A DNA stretch of 56,929 bases from Candidatus Rokuibacteriota bacterium (lineage in GTDB: Bacteria > Methylomirabilota > Methylomirabilia > Rokubacteriales > CSP1-6). The translations under genes were made by a program, and so were the position numbers. Of the stretch, positions 30,063-45,232 are shown piece after piece (within the stretch, counting starts at the first letter, position 1; every line of letters starts with the position of its first letter). Under the pieces are notes generated by a model that was not told where the DNA came from, did not search any database, and saw only the letters and a program-made list of their open reading frames with translations. Location: positions 1 to 56,929 of the forward strand of contig VGLJ01000030.1 in the NCBI GenBank assembly GCA_016866775.1, read 5' to 3'.

Positions 30063-31204
30063 TGCACGGCGAACCGGCGATCTATCGGCGACTCGGCGTT
30101 CGGCGGGTCATTCACGGCTCGGGCACGACCACGCGCTACGGCGGCTCGGTCCTGCGCCCCGAAGTCTTCGACACGATGCGCGAGGCGTCGCAGACGCTCG
30201 TCAACGTCGACGAGCTCAACGAGGCGGCCGGCGCGGCGATCGCGAAGATGGTGGGTGCGGAGGCGGCGTTCGTGACTGCGGGCGCGAGCTCCGGCCTGAT
30301 CCTCCAGTCGGCCGCGTGCATCGCCGGCGACGATCCGGCGAAGATCACGCGGCTGCCCGACACGCGCGGGATGAAGAACGAGATCGTCATCCAACGTGCG
30401 CATCGCTTCGCCTACGACCAGGCCTATCGGATCCCCGGCGGCGTGCTCGTCGAGATCGGCCTCGCGCGCCGCACGCAGGCCTTCGAGCTGGAGGACGCGA
30501 TCACCGAGCGGACGGCCGCCGTCGCGTACCTGATCTCACCGTTCACGAGCCCGCCCGGCGTGCTGCCGCTCGACCAGGTCATCGCCATCGCGCACACGCG
30601 CGGCGTGCCGGTGATCGTCGACGCCGCGTCGATGCTTCCGCCGCGCGCGAACCTGACGAAGTTCATCCGGATGGGCGCCGACCTCGTGAGCTTCAGCGGC
30701 GGCAAAGGTATCCGCGGGCCGCAGAGCACGGGCATGCTGCTCGGCCGCCGCGATCTCATTCGTGCCGTGGCACTCAATGCCAGTCCGAACCAGGCGATCG
30801 CCCGTGCGGCGAAGACGTCGAAGGAGGAGATCGCGGGCCTCGTCGTCGCGCTCGAGCTGTTCCTGAAGGAGGACGAGGCCGCGGAGATGAAGCGCTACGT
30901 CGACGTCTGCCAGGTCATCGTCGGCTCGCTCGGCGAGATCCCGGGGCTGCGCATGGTCGTCGAGCACGATCCGGTGAATCGCGTGATCCCGCACGCGTGC
31001 GTCTACTTCACCCCGGAGTGGCGGGGCCCCTCGGGCCGCGCGGTCCAGCTCGCGCTCGCGGCGGGCGACCCGCACATCTACGTCCAGCAGGGCCCGCACC
31101 AGGGCGGCTACTTCGACGAGATCGCGATCGACCCGATCAACCTCCAGCCGGGCGACGAGAAGATCCTGGCCACGCGCCTGCAGGAGGAGCTGACCCGGCG
31201 CTAG
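30062..31204 (+). CDS. SelA-like PLP-dependent enzyme (not the canonical selenocysteine synthase)
   Basis: 380-aa fold type I PLP enzyme of the SelA-like group (COG1921), which includes D-glucosaminate-6-phosphate ammonia-lyase. It shows 'VINGSGTTTRYGGS'-like opening (here VIHGSGTTTRYGGS), 'AGASSGLILQSAACIAG' and the Lys motif 'LVSFSGGKGIRGPQSTG' near residue 218. True SelA is longer (about 460 aa) and has an N-terminal tRNA-binding domain that is absent here. ATG 30062 overlaps the aminotransferase stop (TGATG); GTG 30059 is possible. A lyase or racemase role on an amino sugar or amino acid is inferred. Confidence 0.82.
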   Translation: MHGEPAIYRRLGVRRVIHGSGTTTRYGGSVLRPEVFDTMREASQTLVNVDELNEAAGAAIAKMVGAEAAFVTAGASSGLILQSAACIAGDDPAKITRLPDTRGMKNEIVIQRAHRFAYDQAYRIPGGVLVEIGLARRTQAFELEDAITERTAAVAYLISPFTSPPGVLPLDQVIAIAHTRGVPVIVDAASMLPPRANLTKFIRMGADLVSFSGGKGIRGPQSTGMLLGRRDLIRAVALNASPNQAIARAAKTSKEEIAGLVVALELFLKEDEAAEMKRYVDVCQVIVGSLGEIPGLRMVVEHDPVNRVIPHACVYFTPEWRGPSGRAVQLALAAGDPHIYVQQGPHQGGYFDEIAIDPINLQPGDEKILATRLQEELTRR

Positions 31205-42164: not shown

Positions 42165-43295
42165 CTAGAGCTTCGCGATCGCCGGGATGACCTTCGCGCC
42201 CATCAGCTCGATCGACCGCATGGTGGTGGGGTGATCCATGCGCGACTCCTGCGCTTCGAGCAGCAGATGACCGCACCCGAGCTTCTGGTGGACGAGCGCG
42301 AACCTGTCGGCGACCTCGGCGGGCTCGCCCGCGATGATGAAGTGCTCCGCCACCAGCTCGTCGTAGCTCATCTGCGCGAGCGAGCGCGGGCGCGCCTTCA
42401 GCGCGAACTGCTTGCCCGCCTTCGAGCGCATGCCGACGGGCTGGAACCACTCGATCGGCCCGCGCAACGTCGGGCCCATGCGCCACACGAAGTGACGCCC
42501 GGCTTCGAGCGCCTTCGCTCTGGTGTCGGCGGTGACCGCGCAGATCAGGAAGCCGAGGTTGTCGGCGGTGACCGTGCGGCCGACTTCCGCGGCGCCTTGA
42601 CGGTAGAACTCGAACAGCTCGCGCGCGATGTCGAACGGCACGAGGAACGGCACGTAGGTGTAGCCACGGCGCCCCGCCCACACTGCGGTCTCGGGGCTCG
42701 CCGTGCCCGGGATCCAGATCGGCGGATGCGGCTGCTGCAGCGGCAGACACCACGGGTTCACGTGACGGAAGTGGTAGTGCTTGCCTTCCCACCGGAACGG
42801 GCCGGGATCGGTCCAGCACTTGAGGATCAGGTCGTGACATTCCTCGAAGCGCTCGCGGTTGTGGACCGGGTTCGCGTTCGCCCACCACTGCTCCACGCCG
42901 ACGCCGCGCACGAAGCCCGAGAGCACGCGGCCGCCGGAGATCAGGTCGGCCATCGCGATCTGCTCGGCCATGCGCACGGGGTTGTCCTCGATCGGCAGGA
43001 TGTTGCCGAGCAGCAGGATCTTCGCGCGCGTGGTCGTGCGCGCGAGCACGGCCGCCGTCATGTTCACGCCGACGTCCACGCACGACGGCGTCGAGTGATG
43101 CTCGTTGATCATCAGCCCGTCGTACCCGACCTGGTCGGCGAACTCGTACTCGGTCAGGTAGCGCTGATAGTTCGCCGCCGCCTTGCCGCGGTCGAAGAAC
43201 CGGTTGGGGAACGCGAGCCGCAGCGACGGGTACTTGTCGCCCTCGGCGTCCGGGTACTCGTGGTGCGGCATCTCGCTGAAGTAGTAGAGCTTCAT
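42165..43295 (-). CDS. LLM class flavin-dependent oxidoreductase (luciferase-like)
   Basis: 376 aa. 'MKLYYFSEMPHHEYPD' opens it; 'GYDGLMINEHHSTPSCVDVG' holds the conserved NEHH; 'KILLLGNILPIEDNPVRMAEQ' and 'SGGRVLSGFVRGVGVEQ' form the central barrel; 'PPIWIPGTASPET' follows. This subfamily is frequent in soil bacteria. Its ATG overlaps the hydrolase stop (ATGA), so the hydrolase, this enzyme, the BNR protein and the LLM gene at 40075 form one minus-strand run. Confidence 0.88.
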   Translation of the reverse strand: MKLYYFSEMPHHEYPDAEGDKYPSLRLAFPNRFFDRGKAAANYQRYLTEYEFADQVGYDGLMINEHHSTPSCVDVGVNMTAAVLARTTTRAKILLLGNILPIEDNPVRMAEQIAMADLISGGRVLSGFVRGVGVEQWWANANPVHNRERFEECHDLILKCWTDPGPFRWEGKHYHFRHVNPWCLPLQQPHPPIWIPGTASPETAVWAGRRGYTYVPFLVPFDIARELFEFYRQGAAEVGRTVTADNLGFLICAVTADTRAKALEAGRHFVWRMGPTLRGPIEWFQPVGMRSKAGKQFALKARPRSLAQMSYDELVAEHFIIAGEPAEVADRFALVHQKLGCGHLLLEAQESRMDHPTTMRSIELMGAKVIPAIAKL

Positions 43296-44071
43296 GCCAG
43301 GAACTCCGTCACGATGCGGGCGAACGTGTCGGGCTGCTCGATCGCCACGAGGTGGCCGCACGTGTCGAGCACGGTGAGCGTCGCGTTGGGCAGGAGCCGG
43401 CGGTACTGCTCGCCGCACACGACGGGAACGATCCGATCCTCGCGGCCCCACACGATCAACGCGCGGTTCGTCACGCGCGGCAGGAACCGCTCGAGCGTCG
43501 GGTTGTGCATGTAGGGCTTCCATCCGAGCCGGGCCGTCATCTCGCGATTGCGCTCGGCGATCTCGAGCTCGGCCGGCGTCGGCGCCCGGCCGAACAGCTC
43601 GTCCCACTCGGGGATCGTGGTCTTGTCGTAGACGTTGAGCTCGCGAAGCTCCGCGGGCGAGTGGAAGAAGACGTCGAGGATCTCGCCTCGCTCCGGCTTG
43701 AGCCCGGCGGCCGAAACGAGGACGAGCTTGTCGATGGCGCCCGGGCTCATCGCGGCCATCTCCGCCGCGGTCCAGCCGCCGAGCGACGCGCCGAGGAGAT
43801 GCGGCCGCCGGAGTCCCGCGGCCTCGATGAACCAGAGGTGGAAGCGTGCGAGATCGGCCACGCCCTCCATCCACTCGGCGTCGCCCGACTGGCCGAAGCC
43901 CGGATGCGTCGGCGCCCACACCGTGTAGCGCTCCGCGATCTGTGTGAGCGAGCGCGTGAAGCCGCGGTTGCCGCCCGCGCCGTGGAGCACGAGCAGCGGA
44001 TCGCCCTGCCCGCCGATCCACGTGTGCACCGCGAGACCACCGACCGAGATCGTCTCCTCACGGATCTTCAT
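43292..44071 (-). CDS. Alpha/beta fold hydrolase
   Basis: 259 aa. The oxyanion 'LLVLHGAGGNRGFTRSL' is near residue 25, nucleophile elbow 'LLGASLGGWTAAEMA' (Ser in GASLG) near 95, an acidic 'WGREDRIVP' near 208 and the terminal His in 'LDTCGHLVAIEQPD'. The full triad suits meta-cleavage-product hydrolases or haloalkane/epoxide-type relatives. ATG 44071 is divergent from the DsrE-family gene, with only 25 bp between the two start codons. Confidence 0.88.
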   Translation of the reverse strand: MKIREETISVGGLAVHTWIGGQGDPLLVLHGAGGNRGFTRSLTQIAERYTVWAPTHPGFGQSGDAEWMEGVADLARFHLWFIEAAGLRRPHLLGASLGGWTAAEMAAMSPGAIDKLVLVSAAGLKPERGEILDVFFHSPAELRELNVYDKTTIPEWDELFGRAPTPAELEIAERNREMTARLGWKPYMHNPTLERFLPRVTNRALIVWGREDRIVPVVCGEQYRRLLPNATLTVLDTCGHLVAIEQPDTFARIVTEFLA

Positions 44072-44096: not shown

Positions 44097-44459
44097 ATGA
44101 GCCGGATTCTCGTCAAGAGCGCGTGGGGCTCGGACGATCCCACGACAGCCGCGTTCGCGTTTCTCCACGCGAATGCGCTGGCCGAAGCCGGGCACGAGGC
44201 GCAGATCTTCCCGCTCGGCGAAGCCGTGGCGCTGATGCGCGCGCCCGTCGCGCAGGCGGTCGTGCCCGTGGGCTGGCCGCCGCTCGCCGAGACGCTGCGG
44301 GCCACCGTCAAGCTGCGCGTACCCATCCACGTCTGAGGCGCGTGCTCGAGGGCCCGTGGGGTCCTCGATGGCGACCTCGAAGGCAAGAACGCCGCGTTCG
44401 CGAACCCGACCATCCTCGTCCCGCTCGTCGAATGGGCGGACAAGATCCTCACCGAATGA
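44097..44459 (+). CDS. DsrE-family selenoprotein with Sec80 (UGA at 44334-44336)
   Basis: DsrE/DsrF-like sulfur-relay fold, 120 aa if the internal TGA is read through. 'RILVKSAWGSDDPTTAAFAF' and 'HANALAEAGHEAQIFPLGEAV' are the family's first strand and helix. The TGA at 44334-44336 falls exactly where relatives have Cys in 'CGAC..ARG': it gives U80-G-A-C83, a UxxC redox motif. The frame continues to 44457-44459, where the stop overlaps the next ATG (ATGA). A 10-bp hairpin with a GTG loop follows the TGA (44346-44368). ATG 44082 and 44070 are alternative starts. If UGA stops, a 79-aa truncated protein lacking the active site would result, which is unlikely. Confidence 0.85.
44346..44368 (+). 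promoter_or_regulatory. Candidate bacterial SECIS element of the DsrE-like gene
   Basis: Ten consecutive pairs (44346-44355 with 44359-44368, one G-T wobble) closed by the triloop GTG. The loop G at 44356 is 20 nt from the last base of the TGA, inside the range known for bacterial SECIS hairpins, which carry a G or GU at the start of a small apical loop for SelB binding. It lies within the coding sequence, as expected in bacteria. Confidence 0.78.
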
Positions 44460-45232
44460 GCGGGCGGCTCGCGGACAAGGTCGCGCTCGTCACCGGCGGC
44501 GCCTCCGGGATCGGGCGTGAGATCGCGCGGTGCTACGTCGCCGAAGGGGCCAGCGTGGTGATCGGCGATCGCAACGCGACGCTGCTCGCCGAGGTGGAGA
44601 AGGCGCTCGGGGCCGCCGCCGTCGAGATGGACGTCACGCGCGAGGCGGACGTCGAGCGCGCCGTCGGCCTCGCGCTGTCGCGCTTCGGCCGGCTCGACAT
44701 CGGCGTGAACTCCGCCGGTCTCGGCTTCGGCGTCTCCGTCCTGGAGCAGACCGAGGCGCAGTGGGACACCGTGGTCGACGTGTGTCTCAAGGGCGTCTTC
44801 CTGTGTCTCAAGCACGAGGCGAGGGCGATGGTGAACGCAGGCCATGGTGGCGTGATCATCAACATCGCGTCGATCAGCGCGCGCCAGCCCGGCGAGGGTC
44901 TGTCCGCCTACTGCGCGGCCAAGGCCGGCGTCGAGATGCTCACGCGCTGCGCGGCGATGGAGCTGGGTCCTCAGCGCGTGCGCGTGGTCGGCATCGGCCC
45001 GGGGCTGATCGACACGCCGCTGACGACCTTCCAGCAGGACCGCCCGCACGTGCGCGAGGCGTTCCTCGCCAACATCCCGCTCGGACGCGTCGGGGTGCCG
45101 CGCGACATCGCGAACGCGGCCGTGTTCCTCGGCTCCGACGAGGCGAGCTGGATCTCCGGTGACACGCTGTTCGTGGACGGCGCGGAGCTGACGAAGAAGT
45201 ACCCCGAGCTCGGCCGCTTCCGACGGTCATGA
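44456..45232 (+). CDS. SDR family oxidoreductase
   Basis: 258-aa classical short-chain dehydrogenase. TGxxxGIG is present as 'VTGGASGIGREIA' near residue 14. 'VVIGDRNATL' has the acidic residue of NAD-preferring members. 'VNSAGLG' replaces NNAG. Catalytic Ser in 'NIASISARQPG', Tyr-x3-Lys in 'YCAAKAG', and the C-terminal 'SWISGDTLFVDGAELT'. ATG 44456 overlaps the stop of the selenoprotein gene, so its translation depends on ribosomes passing the upstream UGA. Substrate unknown. Confidence 0.9.
   Translation: MSGRLADKVALVTGGASGIGREIARCYVAEGASVVIGDRNATLLAEVEKALGAAAVEMDVTREADVERAVGLALSRFGRLDIGVNSAGLGFGVSVLEQTEAQWDTVVDVCLKGVFLCLKHEARAMVNAGHGGVIINIASISARQPGEGLSAYCAAKAGVEMLTRCAAMELGPQRVRVVGIGPGLIDTPLTTFQQDRPHVREAFLANIPLGRVGVPRDIANAAVFLGSDEASWISGDTLFVDGAELTKKYPELGRFRRS

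Follow-up and report, generated by a model that had tools for sequence, protein, structure and literature searches.

A predicted DsrE-family selenoprotein gene with a UGAC active-site motif and a downstream bacterial SECIS-type hairpin in a Rokubacteria genome

DsrE-like selenoproteins with a UxxC motif have been known since 2005, with examples described from the Sargasso Sea metagenome (PMC1088965) and from Desulfovibrio vulgaris (PMC1794560), and a 2026 review lists the group under PF02635 with a UxxC motif and one Sec (PMC13188914). That review also sets out the form of the bacterial SECIS element (bSECIS) as an apical loop of 3-9 nt, a stem of 4-16 bp, a G at loop position 1 or 2 and a spacing of 16-37 nt from the UGA. 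The gene described here adds another member to this group, with which it shares the Pfam family, the UxxC motif, a UGA followed by a downstream bSECIS, and the existence of Cys homologues; the original prediction, which held that such proteins were already known from metagenomes, is borne out by the Sargasso Sea report. What distinguishes the present case, likened to the known proteins at the level of family and motif, is its occurrence in Rokubacteria/Methylomirabilota and several other soil lineages. A literature search returned no report of Rokubacteria DsrE selenoproteins, although a Methylomirabilota MAG with 63 predicted selenoproteins is cited in the review (PMC13188914) and the source on that MAG lay outside the search. 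The evidence presented here widens the range of predicted DsrE selenoproteins to Rokubacteria/Methylomirabilota, and beyond them to soil MAGs scattered over other phyla.

The gene lies in the window (the whole 56,929-nt stretch of DNA that was analysed), where its principal features are as follows.

44097..44459, forward strand: predicted DsrE-family selenoprotein gene, 120 aa when read through, stop TGA at 44457-44459
44334..44336, forward strand: in-frame UGA, codon 80, predicted Sec and U of the UGAC motif; TGA or a Cys codon in 68 loci
44343..44345, forward strand: Cys83 (TGC), second residue of the UxxC motif; column invariant in 32 aligned proteins

The frame comprises 79 codons, the TGA, 40 sense codons and a TGA stop. 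Under translation table 11 it ends at codon 80, so that standard annotation would yield a 79-residue fragment without the active site, a gene shortened at its most important residue. The read-through protein is assigned by Pfam to PF02635 (DsrE) with 43.6 bits against a gathering threshold of 22.7 (E = 3.9e-11), in agreement with the family originally proposed, and the further 40 codons of family-like sequence that had been claimed are found in an open frame encoding a conserved downstream protein.

Our scan of genome contigs for homologues recovered 73 loci, of which 68 align over codon 80. At that position the codon is TGC in 34 loci, TGT in 20 and TGA in 14 (the window included) and nothing else, giving 54 Cys and 14 UGA loci, with the qualification that two of the 54 (L098 and L100) are poor alignments and that L098 in fact has a TGA a few bases on. 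The original reading, in which the in-frame TGA replaces a Cys and leaves U-G-A-C, agrees with both the frame and this alignment: every aligned homologue carries Cys or UGA at position 80, and the homologues continue past it rather than ending there. In the downstream part, Cys83, Ala86, Arg87, Asp93, Leu94, Pro104 and Glu120 are invariant in the 32 aligned proteins. Among the UGA loci, identity downstream of the hairpin is 0.69 at first, 0.74 at second and 0.41 at third codon positions; conservation of the first two positions with a free third is the pattern expected of a translated protein.

The gene tree, built from short rows, has well-supported branches that force at least three Sec/Cys changes. 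Within it a Sec clade of Acidobacteriota and one Myxococcota-labelled MAG (the comparison genomes are draft MAGs whose organism labels may be wrong) is nested in a large Cys clade, and the exchange between Sec and Cys has therefore occurred more than once. The window's own place in the Rokubacteria/Methylomirabilota group is judged from its nearest relatives. At least 38 of the 95 Methylomirabilota genomes in the collection carry UGA-containing DsrE relatives. Further single-UGA DsrE subfamilies with UGRC/UGKC, UTPC and UGAC motifs (L108-L118, L121-L124 and L146-L155) were observed in Rokubacteria-type genomes, several of which hold two or more predicted DsrE selenoprotein genes each. SECIS-like sequence is also kept in some Cys loci (L030, L058 and L074; for example GGGCCCGCGGGGTC in L030), possibly as a relic of a Sec-to-Cys change.

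Immediately downstream of the UxxC codons, the transcript would fold into a hairpin with the following parts.

44346..44368, forward strand: bacterial SECIS-type hairpin, 10 bp with a GUG triloop, 23 nt, from folding, constraint and covariation
44351..44363, forward strand: hairpin core, conserved and covarying, 5 bp plus loop, from third-position identity and compensatory changes
44356..44358, forward strand: apical loop GUG, its first G following 19 intervening nt from the UGA

The 10-bp hairpin with a GTG triloop that had been proposed is real: the 56 nt surrounding it have a minimum free energy of -32.4 kcal/mol, which relative to dinucleotide-shuffled sequences gives a z of -3.05, and its GUG loop, 10-bp stem and 19-nt spacing fall within the published bSECIS ranges (PMC13188914), the loop beginning where the original prediction had placed its G relative to the TGA. 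A search of the window against Rfam gave no match. Synonymous freezing is confined to the codons of the hairpin core, and to the UGA loci: third-position identity over codons 85-89 (RARGV) is 0.93 in UGA loci vs 0.28 in Cys loci, and the mean z of the hairpin against synonymous-codon shuffles is -2.6 in UGA loci vs 0.04 in Cys loci. Arg87 is encoded by CGT in 13 of 13 UGA loci vs 8 of 50 Cys loci (p = 1.9e-8) and Val89 by GTC in 13 of 13 vs 15 of 40, while covariation of the helix across 29 sequences from several subfamilies amounts to 33 both-side changes, a level reached by 0 of 500 shuffles and far above that of slid versions of the helix; relatedness among the sequences inflates these shuffle counts and codon tests, and the Cys control is without the same pattern. 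Compensatory changes were found at alignment pairs 18-30 and 21-27. The outer pairs of the hairpin vary and are poorly kept, the inner helix (44351-44363) being its conserved part.

The original prediction called for a search of the genome for selA, selB, selC and selD, and all four were found; with the homologue results above, none of the three outcomes that it had named as refuting was observed. In the genome profile search they scored 592, 381, 70 and 335 bits, respectively, each above its curated cut-off, with selA, selB and tRNA-Sec (anticodon UCA) clustered on contig 43 of the same genome. The selD gene (G000 contig 31, 24695-25639) itself has an in-frame UGA in a CAGU motif and is of the Sec type. 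Across the genomes of the loci tested, selB scored above cut-off in 11 of 13 with UGA and in 4 of 11 with Cys (one-sided p = 0.02); the two UGA genomes in which it was not found are MAGs of 1.7 and 2.8 Mb, and the miss probably reflects genome incompleteness. A weak SelA-like (PLP-dependent) match of 57.9 bits, well under the selA cut-off, was seen within the window at 30095-30886 on the forward strand; the true selA sits on contig 43 and not in the window.

An AlphaFold model of the read-through protein has a pLDDT of 94.9, and the predicted model adopts the DsrE/YchN fold, its top PDB fold matches all belonging to the DsrE family (3mc3, Z 14.5; YchN, 1jx7, Z 13.4; DsrF, 2hy5_B, Z 11.7; TusD, 2d1p_A, Z 11.6). 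A sequence search of the PDB with the single protein returned chance matches only. In a profile alignment with weak scores, Sec80 aligns with the first Cys of the YchN CKTC motif and with the active-site Cys of TusD. YchN of E. coli thus shares the fold and a CxxC motif aligned with UGAC, and differs in having Cys where the window protein would have Sec, at about 21% identity. The TusD and DsrE subunits of TusBCD and DsrEFH share with the window protein the fold and the position of the persulfide Cys78, but are without the second Cys three residues on. In A. vinosum this DsrE-Cys78 is an essential persulfide carrier (PMC3397948), and the fold and the alignment together suggest that Sec80 occupies the position of the persulfide-carrying Cys of DsrE/TusD, with Cys83 as a putative resolving residue. 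Since Sec80 is placed at the end of a strand and Cys83 in the helix that follows, the site is best read as one for sulfur relay or thiol redox, a role towards which we lean. The TusD/DsrE equivalog (TIGR03012) was considered and rejected at 16.3 bits against a cut-off of 89.25, and there is no TusB/TusC-type gene among the scanned neighbours of the window gene.

The gene is flanked as follows.

43292..44071, reverse strand: divergent alpha/beta hydrolase gene (PF00561, E = 7.4e-27)
44456..45232, forward strand: short-chain dehydrogenase/reductase (SDR) gene, its ATG overlapping the selenoprotein stop as ATGA (PF13561, E = 4.1e-63)

The overlap between the stop and the SDR start was part of the original prediction and can be seen in the window, but it is only local and is absent in close relatives. 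More generally, neither the SDR nor the hydrolase recurs beside the gene in relatives, which display only lineage-local gene orders, and a conserved neighbourhood was rejected as a clue to function because no recurring neighbour pointed to a pathway. Six Cys-type relatives in Acidobacteria (L076-L080 and L090) adjoin CcdA-, DsbD-like and TlpA-like thiol-disulfide genes, these neighbours having been named from sequence by the analyst rather than by profile search. One of the six (L078) has an apparent twin-arginine-type signal sequence ahead of its DsrE domain, which suggests that this relative may be exported.

The reading of codon 80 as Sec has to be weighed against two other accounts of the UGA. 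Were it a true stop, the gene would be a pseudogene or would yield a truncated protein of 79 residues, and the similarity beyond it would be decay that has yet to be erased. The table 11 stop and the two UGA genomes in which selB was not detected speak for such an account. Against it, the same UGA recurs in 14 loci, and dozens of the phylum's genomes have it, with conservation of the protein past that point; the codon-position pattern given above indicates purifying selection beyond the UGA, and constraint on the hairpin is seen in UGA loci but not in Cys loci. We therefore regard termination at codon 80 as exceedingly improbable. That the frame is open only when UGA is taken as sense would equally suit insertion of Trp, Cys or another non-Sec residue through a near-cognate tRNA, release-factor competition or a reassigned code. 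This is also very improbable, given that the UGA exchanges solely with Cys codons and that every component of the Sec pathway is encoded in the genome, among them a tRNA-Sec whose anticodon is UCA; moreover, UGA terminates the same gene at 44457, and the code is therefore not reassigned.

A third alternative accepts the selenoprotein and changes its role: in place of sulfur relay or thiol redox, it would handle selenium or metals by binding or delivering Se, As or Hg species. A DsrE domain is indeed present in YedF, a protein linked to selenium (PMC5322559), several of the recently described selenoprotein families have a link to metals (PMC13188914), and no conserved sulfur-pathway neighbour was found. 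We nonetheless consider selenium or metal handling unlikely: close Cys relatives reside in genomes in which no selB was found, which argues that the role does not need selenium, and the six Acidobacterial Cys loci adjoin thiol-disulfide genes as named by the analyst.

On the evidence of these comparisons, 44097-44459 is very probably a selenoprotein gene in which UGA80 is read as Sec, and we infer insertion of Sec at that codon. The product would be a 120-residue selenoprotein of the DsrE/YchN fold, with SelB-tRNA(Sec) decoding UGA80 under the direction of the hairpin that lies just 3' of it. Sec80 would replace the catalytic Cys at the end of a beta-strand and the start of a helix, with Cys83 one turn into that helix. 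In the most probable chemistry, the selenolate would attack a sulfane-sulfur or disulfide substrate and Cys83 would then resolve the adduct, forming a selenenyl-sulfide that a cellular reductase would reset. The protein would act in sulfur relay or thiol redox, with a faster active site. Because one and the same active site exists in closely related Cys and Sec forms, what selenium adds to sulfur-relay chemistry can be tested directly.

The genome also contains a paralogue with two in-frame UGAs, a UxxU type that is absent from the list of the 2026 review (PMC13188914).

G000 contig 12, 69175-69528, reverse strand: second DsrE gene with two in-frame UGAs, UGGU (L130, L002)

Its UGAs are nine nucleotides apart (VYVUGGUAKTRGVL), and the two-UGA gene occurs in 17 of the 95 Methylomirabilota genomes of the collection, always with both UGAs present. 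In this genome the gene immediately ahead of it encodes a 2-oxoacid dehydrogenase E1-beta. Among 16 distinct sequences, an invariant synonymous codon at conserved residues was found at 0 of 48 positions upstream vs 6 of 9 within 33 nt past the second UGA (p = 2e-6, a value that treats codons as independent), and two of the three variable codons after that UGA fall exactly in two predicted loops. These belong to hairpin A, at columns 14-34 from the first UGA with its loop reached after 19 nt, and hairpin B, at columns 25-45 from the first UGA with a GGAYG loop reached 20 nt after the second. The two overlap and are mutually exclusive, the 3' arm of A being the 5' arm of B. Hairpin B has a moderate synonymous-shuffle z of -1.5 (all 15 sequences), a signal that the Cys loci do not show.

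When the first 12 or 21 nt are removed from the own-genome sequence, a rough proxy for ribosome occupancy of the first or the second UGA, it folds as A and then as B. Several relatives fold as B already with the first 12 nt removed, and this preference for B in the first-UGA case weighs against a simple switch. We tentatively propose, as a possibility somewhat short of an even chance, that the paralogue and its orthologues encode a two-Sec DsrE protein in which the overlapping, exclusive hairpins would serve as one SECIS per UGA, a ribosome advancing by nine nucleotides melting A and letting B form in a SECIS strand switch. The two-UGA paralogue makes the decoding of two close Sec codons testable, as one hairpin cannot meet both spacings. 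A separate UxxU DsrE subfamily, with UGGU and UTGU motifs, was observed in two further genomes, at L119 and L120 (G117 and G092); after the first hairpin these loci have a distinct second hairpin (CCGACCAG..CTGGTCGG), the loop of which lies 27 nt after the second UGA.
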